A DNA stretch of 23,941 nt, from IMG/VR virus record IMGVR_UViG_3300021375_000950, positions 1 to 23,941 of that record; one strand, written 5' to 3'. A program made the position numbers and the translations under genes. Each line of letters opens with the position of its first letter. The stretch's first letter is position 1. Shown in pieces: positions 2,750 to 23,018 of the stretch. This DNA is from a virus. The notes under the pieces are model-generated. The model saw only the letters and a program-made list of their open reading frames with translations, was not told where the DNA came from and made no database searches.

Positions 2750-5419
2750 TTATTCTCCGAAGTCAAACAACGAACTAAACGTATTGTTCTGTAGTGTGCT
2801 TGAAATATCGTAGTTCAACACACCAATTAAGTTATCTAGTTTGTTGTCAATAATTGTTGATTCCATTGCGTCATCATCAAACGGAAGTTCTTTAAACCAA
2901 TCTGGAATACGTAGTTCGTCTGTTGGATACGCAACACTTGTATATCCTAATGGATTCTGTTTTAGTTTGCAAACAATAACTTTCATACCATCTACAATTT
3001 CTTGTGAATACTTGTCGCCATTCATACGTTTAAGTGTATTCCAATTAATACTTGCTCTTACGTGTCCAGGCATAGTAGCTTTACCCATCTTTGCTTCTTT
3101 ACGTTGATACTCGCCAATCTTATTTGCACGTTTAGGCGAACCTTTTTCAAAGCCAGGGCGTAGCTTAAATGCAGTACGGAAGTCTGTAATCTTCTCAAGT
3201 ATTTCAGTTTCTGTCTTATCTGTAAGTACCATAAGTAATAGTTCACTTAAAAACTCTTGCATAAACACAGGAGTATCTGAACGTTTAAGATCAAGACCCA
3301 TTGCTTTTACTTTACCTAGTTTACCGTCGACGTCCATGCGTTCGCCTTCGTTATCATAAATCAAAGCCGCATAACGTTTCTTTGTAATAAACAATCCTGA
3401 CTCTGCAACAATCTCTCTACCTGCCGCAATAACGTCCGACCTAGTTTTTGGACAATGAAATGCTTCTTGCATAAACTTTGGAAATGTTTCATTTGCTTCT
3501 TCGCAAATTTGATCATAAAGTTTAAGAACGTTTTCTTTACCCCAAGGAACACTACCCTTGTCAATATCTTCTTTTAGTACAGGGTGGGCACTAAAGTAAA
3601 CAGAATCTGTATCACCATATATAATACTATCGCCTACATGATCATACTTGCCTGTAATAACTTTGTTTACTTCTGCACTCATATGTTTTGCAATAGCTCT
3701 ACCTGTTAGTGTTGTACTTTGTCCAATACGTGGATCAAAGAATCTACAACCTGGATTAAGGATAGCACCATACAAACTGTTTAGGTTAATCTTTTTAACT
3801 AGCTGTCGTTTATCCCAAAACGCTTGTTCAATCTTGTTACCGGCATCCATAGCTTTGCCTTTTTGCTTTTGCAAATCTTTACGTTCACTATACCAACGTT
3901 TAAGTAGTCCTGGAATAACTCCATCAAACTCATTAGTTAAGATAGTTCCGTTAGCAGTTAGCATCCACGGCTTGTGCGAATCAAATATTAATTTGTATAT
4001 CTCAGCACCACTAAGCATTTCACTTTCACCATTTTCAAAGTCAACAGTAATACTAATGTCTTTCTTCTGCTCCATAACTGCTTCGTATTCAATAGTACCA
4101 AAGCGGCCTTCCCAAGCACCTGCAAATGACTTCTTCTGTAGTGTCATTGCATCTTCAACCATTGCGTTAGTTAAGTCTGGACGTAGTTGTCCAACAACTG
4201 TTGCTGGATCCATATTCAATGCACGAATAACACTAGGATACAGACTGTTTAAGTCCATTGAACCAATCCACTTGTGTACACCTTTTTTAGGAAATGCAAC
4301 ATAAGCACCTGCGGCAGGATCACTACCAGGCTCACGTTTTACTCTGTTAGGAACTTGTAGTCCTCTGTGATGTGCTTCGTTAATAATAGCTTGTTCTGTA
4401 ACTGCAACTGCACCCATAGTAGTTTGTAGTAAAACTGTGTTACTGTGTGCTAGTTCGTTACTAAGGTCAATAAACTTTAGTTTCTTATCTAATTTGTCTA
4501 GTAGTGCAACGTCTTGTCTATTGTATTCAATAAACGTTTTAAAGTCGTTGTTATAAAGTTGATCTAATGTACCTTCGTATACAGTTTTGTTTTCACCAAT
4601 CTCAAGTTCACCAATAGCATCAAGTCTGTATGTGTGGCGTTCTTCATAGGTGTACTTACGATATAATTCTAAACTATCTAAATGCACTCTACCTATTAAG
4701 TCATAAGTTTCAGCTTTACGCCCATACTTTTCATACTCACGTTTCTTAGGAAGTTGTTTCCATAAACAAAAACGTCTTGTGTCATCTTTACTTAAAACTC
4801 TTTTTACACGATTGACAGTATACGGAATATCATAACCTTCACTGTTCCAACCTGTAAGTATATCACTATCTTGTATAATGTCAAGGAATGCTTCTAACAT
4901 ATCTCCTTCTTTTTCATACAAGTATGTGTTAGGAAATTCTTTAACTTCTTCTTGAGCCTCTTCCATAGTTAAGCCTTTTGGAGGCATAGCAAATGTAACT
5001 AATGTATCTAACCATTGTAAGTGTACACTAATAGCAGTAATAGGCATAAACGGATCACTAGGATCAGCAAAGCCACGTTCAGGATCAAAGTCAGTCTCAA
5101 TATCAAAAAACGCAACATTCAACTTAGGCGAATCTACATTTAAATAGTTTTCACTTAAACATTGGAAGATTGGATTAATATCACTTTCAAACAATTCTTT
5201 AGTATTGTTAATAGCTAGTTCTTTACGAAACTGTTTTGTGTTTTTAGCAACAATTCTACTTAATGGATCACCGTAAATACTTTTGTACTTACCACGTTGA
5301 TCTTTATAATAAAATGTATATTTGATTGGGTATTCTGTGTAGGAACGTTTACCATCTTTTCGTTCAACTACTCTGATCACATCTTGATCACGATCGAACT
5401 GTGCGTCTACATAACTCAT
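2750..5419 (-). CDS. 43: DNA polymerase, family B, gp43
   Basis: The 889-residue replicative polymerase with proofreading, near the length of T4 gp43 (898). The exonuclease domain shows Exo I FDIET (D106, E108), Exo II NSEGYDIPY (D197) and Exo III YNRQDVALLD (Y299, D303). The polymerase domain shows motif A MDLNSLYPS (D389), motif B with KINLNSLYG around 543-551, and motif C YGDTDS at 601-606. All catalytic carboxylates are present and the gene is not split, unlike some T4 relatives. The ATG at 5419 has a strong AAGGAGA site. It is followed at once by dexA with a one-base gap. Transcription probably comes from the promoter at 6349-6377 through dsbA; I saw no good promoter in the 51 bases directly upstream. 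Confidence 0.97.
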   Translation of the reverse strand: MSYVDAQFDRDQDVIRVVERKDGKRSYTEYPIKYTFYYKDQRGKYKSIYGDPLSRIVAKNTKQFRKELAINNTKELFESDINPIFQCLSENYLNVDSPKLNVAFFDIETDFDPERGFADPSDPFMPITAISVHLQWLDTLVTFAMPPKGLTMEEAQEEVKEFPNTYLYEKEGDMLEAFLDIIQDSDILTGWNSEGYDIPYTVNRVKRVLSKDDTRRFCLWKQLPKKREYEKYGRKAETYDLIGRVHLDSLELYRKYTYEERHTYRLDAIGELEIGENKTVYEGTLDQLYNNDFKTFIEYNRQDVALLDKLDKKLKFIDLSNELAHSNTVLLQTTMGAVAVTEQAIINEAHHRGLQVPNRVKREPGSDPAAGAYVAFPKKGVHKWIGSMDLNSLYPSVIRALNMDPATVVGQLRPDLTNAMVEDAMTLQKKSFAGAWEGRFGTIEYEAVMEQKKDISITVDFENGESEMLSGAEIYKLIFDSHKPWMLTANGTILTNEFDGVIPGLLKRWYSERKDLQKQKGKAMDAGNKIEQAFWDKRQLVKKINLNSLYGAILNPGCRFFDPRIGQSTTLTGRAIAKHMSAEVNKVITGKYDHVGDSIIYGDTDSVYFSAHPVLKEDIDKGSVPWGKENVLKLYDQICEEANETFPKFMQEAFHCPKTRSDVIAAGREIVAESGLFITKKRYAALIYDNEGERMDVDGKLGKVKAMGLDLKRSDTPVFMQEFLSELLLMVLTDKTETEILEKITDFRTAFKLRPGFEKGSPKRANKIGEYQRKEAKMGKATMPGHVRASINWNTLKRMNGDKYSQEIVDGMKVIVCKLKQNPLGYTSVAYPTDELRIPDWFKELPFDDDAMESTIIDNKLDNLIGVLNYDISSTLQNNTFSSLFDFGE

Positions 5420-12169: not shown

Positions 12170-12763
12170 TTACCACTTCCTACATGACCAGTAACGTGCC
12201 TTAGTACGTGGTCCTGGATTATCACAGTTATGTCTTGCTCTAAAGCTCTTACGTCTTTTTGGATTATTCTTTTTAATGCTCATAGCTTTACCTTTAACAC
12301 TACTTCCGCCGTGTCCAAAGTTTACTTTTTTAACATTACCTGTTTTAGGATCTTTTACATATACTTTAAATTTTTTAACATCGCCTTGCATAGGCTTTCC
12401 AAGTTTTACTTTACGTCCTTGGTACTCTGCTTCGTCCATTGGATCATCATCTTCGTTCCAATGCATAACGCCGTACTGCTCGTAAAACTCATCATCGTCA
12501 TCATATGTTTCTTCAATAATATCTTCGCCAAGTCCTGCACTAATTTCAATATCAAAGTCATCGTAACCTTGTTCAAACATATAGTTTGCTAGTCTGTTAG
12601 CGTACTCGGTTGATTCTTCTTCTGAAAGTTGTCTTGGTAAAGCAATCTCCCATGCTGTACCGCCTTGCTCAGTTTCGTAAAGGTTTTGATCAGGAAAAAT
12701 ACTTTCGTCTAATAACTTAGTAGTCTCCTGTTTCTCCATTACTATTCTTACAAAATGTTCCAT
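12170..12763 (-). CDS. acidic/basic two-part phage protein with conserved C-terminal module
   Basis: A 197-residue protein. Residues 1-60 are mixed helix/strand, and ~60-115 are very acidic (EETYDDDDEFYEQYG, NEDDDPMDEAE). The last 80 are basic and end in a compact module: DVKKFKVYVKDPKTGNVKK, then RKSFRARHNCDNPGPRTK, then ARYWSCRKW. I recall this Cys-containing tail from many marine phage proteins of unknown function. The ATG has a strong AGGAGA site. There is no clear capsid leader (MEHFVRIVMEKQ). The sharp charge split suggests binding to DNA or to a basic partner. It heads the series of leader-bearing genes and could be a head-core component; this is inference. Confidence 0.65.
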   Translation of the reverse strand: MEHFVRIVMEKQETTKLLDESIFPDQNLYETEQGGTAWEIALPRQLSEEESTEYANRLANYMFEQGYDDFDIEISAGLGEDIIEETYDDDDEFYEQYGVMHWNEDDDPMDEAEYQGRKVKLGKPMQGDVKKFKVYVKDPKTGNVKKVNFGHGGSSVKGKAMSIKKNNPKRRKSFRARHNCDNPGPRTKARYWSCRKW

Positions 12764-18201: not shown

Positions 18202-18209
18202 TATTTATC
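18202..18209 (-). promoter_or_regulatory. T4-type late promoter octamer (GATAAATA)
   Basis: GATAAATA on the minus strand, 10 bases after the terminator hairpin that closes the preceding late block. T4 spacing predicts a start near 18196 and a 14-base leader carrying AGGAG for the MscS-like gene. Confidence 0.75.
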
Positions 18210-18213
18210 AGTC

Positions 18214-18252
18214 AAAAGGAAAGGTTGTCCAAAATAAATCAAACAACCTTTC
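18214..18252 (-). terminator. rho-independent-type terminator
   Basis: Ten-base perfect arms GAAAGGTTGT (18219-18228) and ACAACCTTTC (18243-18252) with a 14-base loop. On the minus-strand transcript the hairpin is followed by CTTTT (18218-18214). It lies 20 bases downstream of the stop of the Ala/Gly-rich gene. The U-run is short, so termination may be partial. Confidence 0.65.
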
Positions 18253-18271: not shown

Positions 18272-19867
18272 CTACCACTTGAATGCTTTTTTAACACTCT
18301 TCCAGCCTTTCTTAGCTGTATTTGAAACTGTATTAGCCGCGTCATTGATAGCTTTTGTTGCACTATTAATGGCATTATTTGCTTGATTAATAGTATTGTT
18401 ACATGCGTTAATGGCGCTGTTACATGCGTTAATAGTGCTGTTAGCCGCTTTAACAGCGTTATTAGCATTAAATACACTTGTAGTCCACTTACCTACTTCG
18501 TTACCCCAATGTGCAACTGCATTAGCCGCATCAGTCATTGCTTGACCAGTTTGGTTAATTGCATCTTCAGTAGCATTTACTGCTGAATTACATGCATCTA
18601 CTGTTGTTTTCGCCGCTTTTTCGCCTTGTTTAGCAACTGCTTGTGCTTGGTTTGCAACTTTTATTGCTTCTTCTTGTGCTTTGTCAATGCCATCAGTTAC
18701 ATGGTTCAATGCTTCGTCCATTGTTCCGCCTGCGTTCATAATAGCGTTAGCACCATCTACTAGTGGTCCAATATCAATATCAACATTCATGTCAACATCT
18801 AGTCCAACTAGCAAAGCCGCTTGTCCGTCAATACCAAACGAGATTGTATCATCTTCGTATGTAGCATGTGCTGAACCTTGAGCACCAATTTGTCCACCAA
18901 TACTTGCACCAGCACCACCGGAAACTGTTGCTCCACCTACGTGTGCTGAACCTTCAGCATCAACTCCAACGTTAGCACCTGCAATAGCACCACCGCCTAC
19001 GTCAACACCATGTTCACCAACACTTGCATGTCCGCCTGCTTCTGCATATGCTTCAGCATGAGCACCTGCTGTACCTTCTGCACCTGCATCAACACTAAGA
19101 TCACCTACAGGTGTGTCGATACCAACACTACCATCTACTGATCCTGTTGCTGTTACATCTGCACTTGCACTTGCACCTACTGTTGCCGCCGCTGTTGCAT
19201 CACTGCCGTCCCAACCGCCACTTGCTTTTGCGTGTGCTTCTGCATCTGCACTTGCTTTAGCTTCTGCTTCAGCACTTGCGTCAGCGTGAGCATCTACACC
19301 TGGAACAATTTCTTGTTCAGCATGAGCTTCAGCGCCTGCATTTGCACTTGCTTCTGCGTGTACACTTGCTTCAGCACCAACTGCAACGCTGTGGTCAGTT
19401 ACTTCATAACCTGCACTTGCACTTGCGTCATAACTTGCACTTGCACCAGCTTCATAACTAGCACCTGCATGTTCGTCACCTACTGTTTCACCAACTGATG
19501 TTTCAGCGTGGTCAGCAACTTGAATTGAGTACTGTGGTCTTGACACATCTTGTACCATTGCTTCAGCTTGTGCAACTTGTGCCTGGGCCGCCGCATAATC
19601 GTCATCTGCTTTTTGCTGTTTTGCAAGAGCATCATCATGATCTTTAATTGCTTGATTGTGTGCCGCTTCAGCCGCCTGTTGTTGCTGTTGTGCAGTCTTT
19701 TGTTCGTCTTGTGCGTGTGTTTTGTTTGTGTTAGCTGTGTTAGCTTCTTGTTGTGCAGATTTCTTTTGATTTTCTGCGTTAGCTTTTTCTGAGTTATGTT
19801 GGTTTATTTGATTTTGAGCATCACGTTTCTGGGCTTCTGCTCTGTTTTTATCATCTTGTGCTGACAT
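18272..19867 (-). CDS. Ala/Gly-rich repeat protein with coiled-coil ends and basic amphipathic tail, unknown function
   Basis: A 531-residue low-complexity protein in four parts. Residues 1-105 are a very polar helical stalk rich in Gln, Ala, Asn and Lys, TolA-like in composition. Residues ~110-360 are alternating small residues (ASASAGYE, SVHAEASANAGAEAHAE, GGAIAGANVGVDAEG) that suggest beta strands with Ala/Gly on one face, ending in QAALLVGLDVDMNVDIDIG. Residues ~375-515 return to helix and finish in clean seven-residue repeats (STINACN, SAINACN, NTINQAN, NAINSAT, KAINDAA). The last 13 residues KKGWKSVKKAFKW form a basic amphipathic helix. No signal peptide. The ATG has AAGGA and overlaps the previous stop (TAATG); a terminator follows. 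It is late and beside the lysis genes. I cannot assign a function. Confidence 0.85.
   Translation of the reverse strand: MSAQDDKNRAEAQKRDAQNQINQHNSEKANAENQKKSAQQEANTANTNKTHAQDEQKTAQQQQQAAEAAHNQAIKDHDDALAKQQKADDDYAAAQAQVAQAEAMVQDVSRPQYSIQVADHAETSVGETVGDEHAGASYEAGASASYDASASAGYEVTDHSVAVGAEASVHAEASANAGAEAHAEQEIVPGVDAHADASAEAEAKASADAEAHAKASGGWDGSDATAAATVGASASADVTATGSVDGSVGIDTPVGDLSVDAGAEGTAGAHAEAYAEAGGHASVGEHGVDVGGGAIAGANVGVDAEGSAHVGGATVSGGAGASIGGQIGAQGSAHATYEDDTISFGIDGQAALLVGLDVDMNVDIDIGPLVDGANAIMNAGGTMDEALNHVTDGIDKAQEEAIKVANQAQAVAKQGEKAAKTTVDACNSAVNATEDAINQTGQAMTDAANAVAHWGNEVGKWTTSVFNANNAVKAANSTINACNSAINACNNTINQANNAINSATKAINDAANTVSNTAKKGWKSVKKAFKW
18397..18433 (-). repeat. 16-base direct repeat in a 21-base period
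   Basis: The plus-strand word TGTTACATGCGTTAAT occurs at 18397-18412 and again at 18418-18433. The 21-base period equals one seven-residue repeat of the encoded coiled coil (NACNSAI/NACNNTI), so the repeat grew in frame. Confidence 0.8.
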
Positions 19868-20154
19868 TATTTTTTCCTTTTATTTTCTAAGTTCTGTATA
19901 CGATTTTCAAGCTCGTCAATCTTACGAGCAATGTTTGGGTTTACCTTTTTCCAAGCATCAGGATCTTGATTGAACCATGTCCAACCATATCTATCTCTAA
20001 TTGTGTCTAAAAGTGTGTCCCATTTGCCAAATACCCATAGTGCAATACGAGTATCTCTCATATATGCAATGAATAATGCCCCAAATATACTGCCGGCAAT
20101 AGCGGTATATATCCATAGTCTATCACTAGCCATGCGTTCTATCATTTCGATCAT
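19867..20154 (-). CDS. small single-span membrane protein with coiled-coil tail
   Basis: A 95-residue protein with one membrane segment near 12-31 (RLWIYTAIAGSIFGALFIAY) and a soluble C-terminus. That end holds an aromatic part (DRYGWTWFNQDPDAWKKVNP) and a terminal coiled coil (IDELENRIQNLENKRKK). There is no lipobox. It lies between the lysis lipoproteins and the Ala/Gly-rich gene, whose start it overlaps by one base. It could be a lysis accessory or pinholin-like protein, or an anchor for the Ala/Gly-rich protein, but the sequence alone does not decide. The ATG is 25 bases after a late-promoter octamer and has an AGGGA site. Confidence 0.65.
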   Translation of the reverse strand: MIEMIERMASDRLWIYTAIAGSIFGALFIAYMRDTRIALWVFGKWDTLLDTIRDRYGWTWFNQDPDAWKKVNPNIARKIDELENRIQNLENKRKK

Positions 20155-20179: not shown

Positions 20180-20187
20180 TATTTATC
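20180..20187 (-). promoter_or_regulatory. T4-type late promoter octamer (GATAAATA)
   Basis: GATAAATA on the minus strand, overlapping the TGA stop of the 51-residue lipoprotein gene. The predicted start is near 20174, leaving a 20-base leader with AGGGA before the single-span membrane protein gene. It gives this gene and the Ala/Gly-rich gene their own late transcript. Confidence 0.7.
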
Positions 20188-20341
20188 AGAAGGAGCAAGT
20201 CATCTCGCCTTTGGGCGATACTACAATACCTTCTTTTGTAAGGGAATCAATATCAACGTCTGCACCAGGACGGACAGAACATTTATTCTTAGCACATGAG
20301 GCTAATAGGGCAATCAAAACCAAGACCGCCCATATACGCAT
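20186..20341 (-). CDS. very small lipoprotein, second lysis-region lipoprotein
   Basis: A 51-residue protein, MRIWAVLVLIALLASC at the start: a short hydrophobic signal peptide with lipobox LLAS-C and lipidated C16. The mature part is about 36 residues with two more cysteines (KNKCSVRPG and EMTCSF at the end), which could pair in the periplasm. The start shares one base with the stop of the o-spanin-like gene (TAATG), and an AAGAAG run precedes it. It is easily missed because of its length. The location right after the spanin pair suggests a role in outer-membrane disruption or superinfection exclusion; both are inference. Confidence 0.75.
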   Translation of the reverse strand: MRIWAVLVLIALLASCAKNKCSVRPGADVDIDSLTKEGIVVSPKGEMTCSF

Positions 20342-20730
20342 TACTTCTTAGTTTTGCTTTTATCTGTAGACTCGTAATATTCTTTGTAAGATTTAATAAT
20401 TTCGTCTTGTTGTAGCATGTATGCACGTATCTGTGCAAAGTTTTTACTTAGAGCTTCGTAGCCGTCATCTGTTAATCCAAATAATACAGGATCAACACCA
20501 CCTGCTTTAAGTTTTTCAAACACTTCTTCAGCGTTTTCACTAGTAATGATAGTCCATTTGATTTCTTCTAGCTTTGGAGTTAACGGTTGAGGTAACGCAA
20601 GAGGTTCTCTAGGAACTTCTGTTTTAAAGATCTCTAGTTGCTTAACAGAACTACATCCACTAATAAGGAATGTACTTAGGATTAGCAATACTAGGACACT
20701 CTGAGTTGATTTCAGACTTTTTAGTAGCAT
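20341..20730 (-). CDS. outer-membrane spanin-like lipoprotein (o-spanin, Rz1-like)
   Basis: A 129-residue lipoprotein. The signal peptide holds lipobox LISG-C with lipidated C26, preceded by a hydrophobic run. A Pro-rich part follows (PREPLALPQPLTPK), as is usual in Rz1-type proteins, then a compact domain WTIITSENAEEVFEKLKAGGVDPVLFGLTDDGYEALS and a terminal helix (LQQDEIIKSYKEYYE). I recall this domain from many phage lysis cassettes. It begins out of frame inside the end of the i-spanin gene (71-base overlap), the partial Rz/Rz1 nesting. The ATG has a GGAGA site. It would complex with the i-spanin to fuse inner and outer membranes at lysis. It is longer than classical Rz1. Confidence 0.8.
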   Translation of the reverse strand: MLLKSLKSTQSVLVLLILSTFLISGCSSVKQLEIFKTEVPREPLALPQPLTPKLEEIKWTIITSENAEEVFEKLKAGGVDPVLFGLTDDGYEALSKNFAQIRAYMLQQDEIIKSYKEYYESTDKSKTKK

Positions 20731-21145
20731 TTTTCTCTTTCTCCGTTAATGGCGACCCCATAGCAATTTCTACACATCTCATTGCTTTTGTAGTCGCACC
20801 GTTAATAACACGTTCAACTGATTTAGGACGCTCATCTGCAAGTTTGCCTATGTCACGTACTTCACCTTGACCGTTGATTTTATTAAAGCGTTTATCTAAC
20901 GCTGTAAATTCAGCTTGTAATGCTTTGTTCTGTGCATCTAAAGTAGCTGTAATTTTTCTTTGTGATTCAAAGTCAGCTTTTGCTTGTGCAATTACTTCTT
21001 TTTGACTTTCAACACTTTGTTCTAATTTTAAATTGTTTGCTTCTGATGTCGCAAGATCAGCTTTTAAGTTTTTTACGTAGACAACACCGCCACCGGCACC
21101 GGCCATCATAATAATTACTAATGCAATTTTAATCGATCCTATCAT
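20660..21145 (-). CDS. inner-membrane spanin-like protein (i-spanin, Rz-like)
   Basis: A 161-residue protein with an N-terminal membrane anchor (3-23, IGSIKIALVIIMMAGAGGGVVYV). A long periplasmic coiled coil (~25-90, LATSEANNLKLEQSVESQK and onward) follows, then a C-terminal part with two cysteines (MRCVEIAMG and SECPS) that may form a disulphide. This is the layout of Rz-type i-spanins. The start at 21145 has a GAGG site and overlaps the zinc-ribbon microgene by 17 bases. The o-spanin-like gene is nested in its 3' end. It acts in the last step of host lysis after endolysin action. Confidence 0.8.
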   Translation of the reverse strand: MIGSIKIALVIIMMAGAGGGVVYVKNLKADLATSEANNLKLEQSVESQKEVIAQAKADFESQRKITATLDAQNKALQAEFTALDKRFNKINGQGEVRDIGKLADERPKSVERVINGATTKAMRCVEIAMGSPLTEKEKNATKKSEINSECPSIANPKYIPY

Positions 21146-21269
21146 CTTTCACCTCGTATCTGTGTTGCTCACAGACGATAATTTCAATTGGCTTTCCATC
21201 ACCGTCTGTAAACGTTTCAATTAGTCTACCTTCGTGCTGTCTTCCGCAGTTTTGGCAGTACTGACTCAT
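21129..21269 (-). CDS. zinc-ribbon microprotein
   Basis: A 46-residue protein, MSQYCQNCGRQHEGRLIE at the start. Cysteines 5 and 8 (CQNC) and C33/H36 (CEQH) can bind one zinc ion in a ribbon. The start ATG overlaps the endolysin stop as ATGA (21269-21266), so translation is coupled. A longer frame to 21317 runs inside the endolysin gene and is not preferred. Similar tiny zinc proteins are sprinkled through T4-like genomes, and the role is unknown. It lies between endolysin and i-spanin, which otherwise would be adjacent. Confidence 0.6.
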   Translation of the reverse strand: MSQYCQNCGRQHEGRLIETFTDGDGKPIEIIVCEQHRYEVKDDRID

Positions 21270-21775
21270 ACCATTGACAAAGCAAGTTCCGTTGTTTCTT
21301 CTACTCGTCTTGTCCACCCTCTACCAAACGTTTTAAACGTAGATAGTTTTTCGTAGTAGTCTTGACGGTCTTCTTGGAACTCTTTAATAGTTTCTTCAAG
21401 TCCGTGTGTATCAATATAGTCAGCTAGTTTTTTAAGTGTGTTCGGTCCAATACCGCCATCAGCAGTAGTACCAATCATACGTTGTAAAAATTTAGCACTT
21501 CGACCTGTACCTGCATTAACACCAAAGTCAAATAAACATAGGTCTAACCCTACTGGTACATTATCACACTTTAATCTATCCCAGTAGTTTTTTCTGTAGA
21601 TAGGTGCAACATCGTTGAACTCTAAGTCTTTCATATCCTTAGTTCCGCCAAACGCTACATAAACTTTTTTGGTAACACCCATGTTTGTTTCCCCACCTGG
21701 GTCGCTAGGGTGATTTACATATCCACCTTCGTGGTGTAAAATTGTCTCTAAACACTTATCGTAATTTTCTTGCAT
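21266..21775 (-). CDS. endolysin, glycoside hydrolase family 108
   Basis: A 169-residue peptidoglycan hydrolase. The N-terminal block HHEGGYVNHPSDPGGETNMGVTK is the GH108 signature, with E16 in EGGY as the catalytic acid. The C-terminal half holds the putative peptidoglycan-binding region with the conserved GVNAGTGRSAKFLQ and DGGIGPNTLK. There is no signal peptide, so it needs a holin to cross the membrane. The ATG has an AGGA site. It is the first recognisable lysis gene of the late block, followed by a zinc microprotein and the spanin pair. In T4 the lysozyme (gene e) is a different family. Confidence 0.93.
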   Translation of the reverse strand: MQENYDKCLETILHHEGGYVNHPSDPGGETNMGVTKKVYVAFGGTKDMKDLEFNDVAPIYRKNYWDRLKCDNVPVGLDLCLFDFGVNAGTGRSAKFLQRMIGTTADGGIGPNTLKKLADYIDTHGLEETIKEFQEDRQDYYEKLSTFKTFGRGWTRRVEETTELALSMV

Positions 21776-22497: not shown

Positions 22498-23018
22498 TAC
22501 ATTGCACCGCCTTCAACAGCGGCTGTTTCGCCTTCTTGTGCAACATCGTCAACTGCTGGTTGTGTTGTTGCAACTGCTGGTTCACTAGTAAAGTCTAATT
22601 GCTCTTTGTATCCACTATAGATATTTAAGATAAGTTCTTTCGGCATTTTAATAGTTACTACCCAAACTGGTTCTCTATCTAGTTTGCCCTTTTTAGTACC
22701 TGGACGAATATCGTCTGGTTCTTTAATTTTTCGTGGTTTTAAAATAGCTGTTTTTTCATACGAAACATAACAGTCATAATCTAGCAGTCTTTTACCACCT
22801 GCTGGATCAGGCATTTTGTCCTTAGGCCACATAAAAGAAGCCTTAACCCAATGTCTTTCTATTTTAGGACCTTCAACTAACTCGCCATCTTCCCAGTTAG
22901 CATACACATATAGATCTAATTCGTCTAATACACGTTCAAAGTCTTTTAAAACACTTAAAGCAGTATCACTTTCGTATATACTTTCAATGTTTGTAATAAT
23001 ATCTAATACATCACGCAT
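22497..23018 (-). CDS. conserved-looking marine phage protein, unknown function
   Basis: A 173-residue protein. The recognisable blocks are LDELDLYVYANWEDGELVEGPK, WVKASFMWPKDKMPDPAGGKRLLDYDC and KPRKIKEPDDIRPGTKKGKL, which I recall from hypothetical proteins of marine T4-like phages. An acidic, Ala/Val-rich end (PAVDDVAQEGETAAVEGGAM) follows. It is the first gene of the late block, with a GATAAATA octamer 26 bases upstream and an AGGTGA site. It is co-expressed with the next gene (one-base overlap). No enzyme motif is visible. It diverges from phoH across a 156-base control region. Confidence 0.7.
   Translation of the reverse strand: MRDVLDIITNIESIYESDTALSVLKDFERVLDELDLYVYANWEDGELVEGPKIERHWVKASFMWPKDKMPDPAGGKRLLDYDCYVSYEKTAILKPRKIKEPDDIRPGTKKGKLDREPVWVVTIKMPKELILNIYSGYKEQLDFTSEPAVATTQPAVDDVAQEGETAAVEGGAM

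Follow-up and report, generated by a model that had tools for sequence, protein, structure and literature searches.

A fibre-like protein encoded in a phage lysis block, its Peptidase_S74-bearing relatives, and a possible role at the host envelope

Introduction

Genes for phage fibres commonly adjoin lysis genes, as they do in T7 and T4. Some domains are known to cut themselves off phage fibres. In MyRF and endoNF there is a Ser–Lys dyad, and cleavage takes place just before the Ser, as set out in the available excerpt of PMC8326128. The Peptidase_S74 (S74) domain, which is of the self-cleaving kind, may be present in some members of a family and missing from others: the MAT fibres of Bdellovibrio, in the accessible part of PMC10769870, make up one fibre family in which S74 and S74-less members stand together.

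Here we describe a family of late phage proteins that includes P0001, a 531-residue protein encoded in a stretch of viral DNA of 23,941 nucleotides (referred to below, as a whole, as the window). A literature search retrieved no description of this family. We are confident of its relationship to S74 proteins and of the architecture described below; the role proposed for it in the Discussion is more tentative.

Results

Architecture of P0001

A reading of the letters alone (hereafter the sequence-only reading) had proposed a 531-residue open reading frame, which does exist, on the minus strand:

18272..19867, minus strand: P0001 open reading frame, encoding a fibre-like protein of 531 residues, with an ATG start and a TAG stop
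18752..19498, minus strand: strand domain of alternating small and polar residues (residues ~124–372), with the most conserved stretch of the family near its end
18275..18316, minus strand: codons of the last 14 residues, a basic, amphipathic, aromatic tail

The stalk (residues 1–107) is rich in Gln and Asn (together 30%) and also in Ala. It had been called TolA-like, which is apt for its composition only; searches of PHROGs, Pfam and NCBIfam showed no such homology. Residues 108–372 consist of Ala, Gly and Ser to 49%, have a net charge of −40, and alternate small with polar residues more strongly than shuffled sequences (lag-1 z −5.0, lag-2 z +5.2). Over residues 124–346 the parity difference was 3.27 versus 1.34 after shuffling, a value that none of 500 shuffles attained; the alternating Ala/Gly/Ser strands of the sequence-only reading are thus real beyond shuffles, and take up about 230 residues. 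The same holds for its heptad-repeat coiled coil, at about residues 373–525, where the lag-7 autocorrelation reached z +6.5 and Ile and Ala/Cys occupy a/d-like places, and for its basic Trp-containing amphipathic tail. Indeed, residues 506–531 (ending ...GWKSVKKAFKW) have a net charge of +5 and two Trp, and the last 14 residues have a net charge of +6 and an amphipathic moment at the 99th percentile of shuffles (obtained on relative L002, which has the same tail). The N-terminus is polar (mean hydropathy −2.1) and without a signal peptide, and no transmembrane segment was found, the maximum 19-residue hydropathy being 1.21.

AlphaFold modelled residues 2–109 of P0001 as one helix, confident to about residue 90, and a second confident helix at ~420–510; the strand domain was of low confidence. 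For a short relative the model shows eight long strands and one helix (mean pLDDT 51). The two models are weak (mean pLDDT 51 and 61) and unlike each other in strand length. In fold searches, the 50 PDB matches listed had E values of 6e-3 or worse and TM scores of at most 0.25, and the viral search gave four matches with E below 0.001, with TM scores of at most 0.28 among the 50 listed. The best match in a sequence search of solved structures had an E value of 0.17. None of these searches gave a match good enough to build on.

Profile matches of P0001 in PHROGs, Pfam and NCBIfam were confined to its coil, no model tested in these collections describes the strand domain of the family, and ten relatives searched in the same way gave only weak matches or matches to the coil or S74. 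The sequence-only reading had named beforehand, as evidence against itself, a clear match to a tail-fibre or tape-measure family; none was obtained, since the PHROG matches, to one tail protein and two tape measures, extend over residues 384–529 only. A tape measure was rejected on this ground (phrog_1535 and phrog_1272, E 4.6e-5 and 0.0016) and on that of the position of P0001 in a lysis block.

The sequence-only reading had also pointed to a likeness with polymorphic toxins and to a bacteriocin-like role, which the searches did not bear out. A toxin-like agent of this kind is highly improbable: a likeness of the Ala/Gly stretches is the only thing that speaks for it, whereas Pfam, NCBIfam and PADLOC revealed no toxin, secretion or immunity domain, a plasmid search with the short relative P0002 gave no match, and the S74 domain of the relatives (see below) fits a fibre better. 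Polymorphic toxin, bacteriocin and defence protein were therefore all rejected, for want of a supporting domain. Note that the matches of P0001 in PADLOC and NCBIfam look like generic matches to coiled coils; those in NCBIfam lie far below the cut-offs.

The lysis block of the window

The genes and signals around P0001 are the following:

21266..21775, minus strand: GH108 endolysin (PHROGs and Pfam matches)
20660..21145, minus strand: Rz-like i-spanin (phrog_739)
20341..20730, minus strand: Rz1-like o-spanin, overlapping Rz (phrog_812; lipobox-like LISGC, by eye)
20180..20189, minus strand: late-promoter-like CTGATAAATA, 26 nt before the gene of a 95-residue protein (putative promoter)
19867..20154, minus strand: 95-residue protein with one hydrophobic segment (hydrophobic window 1.72) and a coil-like C-terminus
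18219..18252, minus strand: terminator-like hairpin behind P0001, with a 14-bp stem
18202..18211, minus strand: second late-promoter-like CTGATAAATA, 20 nt before the gene of a 146-residue protein (putative promoter)

The endolysin, Rz-like and Rz1-like genes lie upstream of P0001 on the same strand, and P0001 therefore belongs to a lysis block, as the sequence-only reading had it. They are preceded by two genes whose PHROGs are labelled virion structural. Downstream of P0001 come proteins of 146 and 114 residues with hydrophobic segments (that of 114 residues judged by eye), DnaJ, a gene that by eye resembles peptide deformylase, and a Clp-type protease ATPase. P0001 itself was rejected as a holin, because it has no transmembrane segment (maximum hydropathy as above), and as a spanin, because it has neither hydrophobic segment nor lipobox, its N-terminus is polar, and Rz and Rz1 genes are present separately.

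The small membrane protein that had been read beside P0001 is the 95-residue one; its gene lies immediately upstream, and its end has one base in common with the start of P0001. Relatives of it occur in L002, L004, L009, L010, L017 and L074, and it had no match in the phage collection at E 0.01. It is a candidate holin or anchor. Between this gene and Rz1 there is also an open reading frame of 51 codons (20186–20341, minus strand) with a lipobox-like LLASC, possibly a further small lipoprotein of the lysis block.

Of the terminator and the own late promoter ascribed to P0001, each stood in part. The hairpin at 18252–18219 has a folding energy of −16.8 kcal/mol (z −4.4), which none of 200 shuffles equalled, but the terminator scan as a whole was at chance level (one found versus 2.0 expected). 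As to the promoter, TGATAAATA was found twice versus 0.71 expected, which is not significant, as 15 of 100 shuffles equal that; both copies occur as CTGATAAATA, 20–26 nt before a gene start, and CGGATAAATA stands 27 nt ahead of a gene that starts at 23018. The T4 late-promoter consensus, TATAAATA, was searched for and is absent, and a sigma-70 promoter scan was at chance level (five found versus 6.0 expected). The position of CTGATAAATA is thus suggestive of a late promoter, but the counts are not significant.

The endolysin is closest to that of Methylophilales phage Melnitz (77%), followed by those of Pelagibacter phages (73% and 64%; Mosig 73%), while the T4-type DNA polymerase (2750–5419) is closest to those of Sinorhizobium and Agrobacterium phages (50% and 46%); these different nearest phages indicate a mosaic ancestry. 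They also make it likely that the phage comes from the sea.

Members of the family

Relatives retrieved in scans of viral contigs were between 37% and 98% identical to the respective query, and 17 columns are invariant among 35 aligned members. P0001 has both the basic C-terminus and the conserved strand-domain columns that characterize the family. The 22 viral records searched hold one locus each, which in some records consists of two adjacent pieces and in L071 is broken. Short members (~280 residues) start almost directly in the strand domain; the stalk is a feature of the long ones.

In the phage collection, searched with the low-complexity filter on, P0001 matched only Flavobacterium phage immuto (four records), whose relative is 279 residues long (hhalign probability 99.6). 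In phages with similar endolysins (Melnitz-2, Mosig, HTVC008M and CRP-810), the annotation shows no counterpart beside the endolysin.

A first scan of cellular genomes gave no match and a second gave one metagenome-assembled genome (MAG), in which a contig labelled actinobacterium encodes a 563-residue relative (L095, 5905–7596) that ends in RRFFRW, surrounded by what look like ordinary cellular genes and no obvious phage genes. Two of the 298 genomes around this MAG matched, the MAG included; the other holds L097 (367–2373), whose end is not aromatic. Mis-binning may lie behind these occurrences.

Peptidase_S74 in close relatives

The S74 domain escaped notice from P0001 alone because the relatives are needed to see it. 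Seventeen of them (near-copies included), down to ~56% identity, continue into Peptidase_S74 at the point where P0001 stops. The domain follows the coil, above the Pfam cut-off, in five of the six relatives scanned (not in L017), and a search of whole records found it in 9 of 12, with one match each, the window, L017 and L002 being without. In Pfam, P0001 has no C-terminal Peptidase_S74 domain. Nor was an S74 found elsewhere in the window in hidden or split form, the corresponding DNA pattern occurring at chance level.

All 17 S74-type sequences, several of which are near-copies, contain the motif SDxRLKxN, with the Ser/Lys spacing of the MyRF/endoNF dyad given in the excerpt of PMC8326128. 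From the dyad and the cut position in that excerpt, the cut in the S74-type relatives is placed just before the Ser of SDxRLK. It is at this very point that P0001 ends: L012 reads KKAFKW-SDSRLK, and the window protein, L002 and L017 read KKAFKW-stop. The 95%-identical L004 reads KKFF-SDSRLK, the window protein being two residues longer at that point, and comparison of the two shows the S74 codons to be missing in the window between closely similar flanks.

In a quick tree of 37 rows, 14 with S74 (near-copies, contig-cut rows, L013 and L055/L078 left out; L079, L075, L076 and L097 entered untrimmed), the trait needs four changes, at least three of them on well-supported branches; the history is thus one gain with two losses, or something close to it.

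The S74 chaperone of close relatives points to a trimeric protein of virion or fibre type. P0001 could accordingly be a virion appendage: a fibre or whisker mounted on the particle as a homotrimer, which S74 would mature in many relatives and which the window phage would make in pre-trimmed form, the tail being the distal tip that touches the host surface. In favour of this reading, coil and S74 of the S74-type member L024 together match phrog_6121 (E 1.9e-11), a 'virion structural protein'; other S74 phage proteins matched are annotated as tail fibre, tail spike, structural, injection-type or hypothetical; and the MAT fibres, as portrayed in the accessible part of PMC10769870, also include S74 and S74-less members. 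On the other hand, no known attachment domain was found, the ~280-residue members begin nearly in the strand domain, the core is conserved whereas tips are usually variable, and relatives occur in cellular genomes. Our search for virion proteomics yielded none, the main text of PMC7077304, in the part available, being without 'immuto', 'mass spectrometry' and 'LC-MS'. We regard a virion appendage as a serious possibility, second in rank among the readings considered.

The basic tail

The stretch preceding the cut in S74-type members resembles the end of the S74-less ones. Excluding contig-cut rows (L006, L016, L019 and L020) and L097, all 8 distinct S74-type tails have a net charge of +3 to +5 and an aromatic residue at the end, and all 22 distinct S74-less tails listed, that of the cellular L095 among them, have a net charge of +3 or more, with an aromatic residue among the last four in 19 of the 22. 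The tails of L058, L060 and L062 are not aromatic, and these three together with those of L063 and L068 are weakly or not amphipathic.

For comparison, we fetched 12 of the 20 other S74 phage proteins matched, of which 11 were readable (L109 was not) and some are kin of one another. In these 11, the 14 residues before the cut have a net charge of −1 to +1, and the charge therefore belongs to the P0001 family. Six of the 11 have Phe at the last place before the cut, and the final aromatic residue may partly be a property of S74. The same comparison bears on the possibility that P0001 is an internal scaffold, or else a protein ejected from inside the virion. Some S74 matches stand just before genes annotated as injection proteins and Ala-rich helices would suit such a role, but those S74 proteins, compared over the ~60 residues that precede the cut, have no basic stretch there; moreover, the window gene is part of a lysis block, in a phage with a T4-type polymerase. 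We hold this reading to be improbable.

Among 714 distinct open reading frames called in the loci, the same contigs not being taken twice, 28 have a similar basic ending: 19 family members, three small Lys/Ala helical proteins, which sit near S74-type members, five proteins of one other recurrent kind, and one other. Lys/Ala helical proteins of 99 and 129 residues lie near family members in L021, L022 and L024 (7350–7649) and in L017 (6668–7057); the endings seen are KSLKFW, KALKFW and KKLKFW, which gives the tail the look of an address tag common to several proteins. Proteins ending in SFRARHNC...TKARYWSC plus a basic Trp end also recur, in the window (12170–12763, minus strand; a match to phrog_7595, function unknown) and in L021–L024.

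Gene context across relatives

At least one of five peptidoglycan-hydrolase families (PF00182, PF07486, PF01471, PF05838 and PF00959; the amidase family PF01510 was left out of this cross-record search) is present in 14 of 22 records, and in the other eight none of the five was found. In 12 of these 14, the family gene and the nearest hydrolase domain are no more than 1.7 kb apart, measured from rounded positions of the family gene, versus 1.6 expected within 3 kb; the distance is 172 kb in L048 and 7 kb in L080. Across nine hand-picked lineages, with about one record each, seven are near a hydrolase versus 0.84 expected. L012 sits among what look, by eye, like sugar-modifying and oxygenase genes. 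Five endolysin families occur beside members (GH108, GH19-like, Hydrolase_2, amidase and phage lysozyme), some of which we assume may share the lysozyme superfamily.

Small hydrophobic proteins make up 18 of 33 same-strand neighbours within 80 nt versus 52 of 311 other open reading frames (near-copies included; the context table comprises 27 chosen loci, and L071 fell out of the neighbour count). By lineage group, only 12 of 20 have such a neighbour. Taken across relatives, the proximity to hydrolase genes strengthens the link of the family with lysis.

Proteins that look by eye like outer-membrane barrels, with signal-peptide-like starts, are also encoded near family members (L014 2932–3729, L079 4033–4833, L083 3938–4729, L075 2360–3070 and L076 1497–2207).

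A position in the lysis block would also suit a non-virion protein that is freed by lysis and attaches to or coats nearby cells, vesicles or debris, as a matrix, decoy or public good. The polar N-terminus without signal peptide and the contrast between the basic tail and the strongly acidic strand domain agree with this reading, against which stands S74, which would be unusual in such a protein; we consider this reading unlikely.

Discussion

Of the roles put forward by the sequence-only reading, a membrane-acting lysis factor and a released fibre are both still candidates. Our first choice, held tentatively, at less than even confidence and only narrowly ahead of a virion fibre, is that P0001 is a lysis-time accessory acting at the host envelope. 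The protein would form a homotrimer. In S74 members the chaperone would guide folding and then remove itself by cleavage, so that the basic tail becomes the free C-terminus; the window member is encoded in trimmed form from the outset, ending at that point. The tail would then bind the membrane, another anionic partner or the adjoining small membrane protein. Since P0001 has no signal peptide, it should meet the envelope either from the inside at lysis or from the outside once released. Several considerations call for caution. First, as fibre genes are often found beside lysis genes, which also favours a virion appendage, position alone is no proof of a role in lysis. Second, the endolysin, Rz and Rz1 set of the window looks complete without P0001, which would argue against an accessory. 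Also counting against this reading are the records in which no hydrolase of the five families was found or the nearest one is distant, the different gene neighbourhood of L012, the lineage groups that have no small hydrophobic neighbour, the tails that are not aromatic or at best weakly amphipathic, the virion structural PHROG matched by an S74-type relative, the two relatives in cellular genomes, and the poor models of the strand domain.

A more specific version of the lysis-accessory reading assigns a new use to S74, as a removable cap: the domain would mask the three clustered cationic tails of the trimer until folding is complete, after which the freed tails would, at lysis, attack the envelope or anchor themselves to it, and lineages like that of the window would have lost the cap. 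We think this rather unlikely; if true, it would represent a new kind of lysis accessory as well as a new use of S74.

The family offers a testable handle on proteins often encoded together with lysis genes in diverse phages. Should the tail prove membrane-active, a further step would be added to the holin–endolysin–spanin picture, in which a self-cleaving fibre chaperone controls a cationic tail. If P0001 is a virion fibre, its strand domain would be unusual for a fibre of S74 type, and alleles that are already trimmed would occur in nature.

Comparison with known systems

The tape measures of phrog_1535 and phrog_1272 resemble P0001 weakly and in the coil only; P0001 is placed in a lysis block and has no match outside residues 384–529. 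A relative is the product of gene 82 of Flavobacterium phage immuto (QQO92000.1, 'hypothetical protein'), which shares 34% identity over 334 alignment columns, the same strand domain and a KKAKFW end. Gene 82 lies directly behind genes annotated as chitinase, holin and YneF protein; unlike P0001, its product is about half as long and has neither stalk nor S74.

The MAT fibres of Bdellovibrio, as far as the accessible part of PMC10769870 describes them, resemble the P0001 family in mixing S74 and S74-less members. They have signal peptides, beta-helical shafts and varied tips, whereas the P0001 family is without signal peptide and has an Ala/Gly strand domain. Finally, the family resembles the endosialidase-type fibres and spikes with Peptidase_S74 (PF13884) in that many relatives carry this C-terminal domain after the coil, with its Ser–Lys dyad. 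It differs from them in that P0001 is without the domain and in the stretch before the cut, whose net charge is +3 to +5 in the family versus −1 to +1 in 11 other S74 phage proteins.
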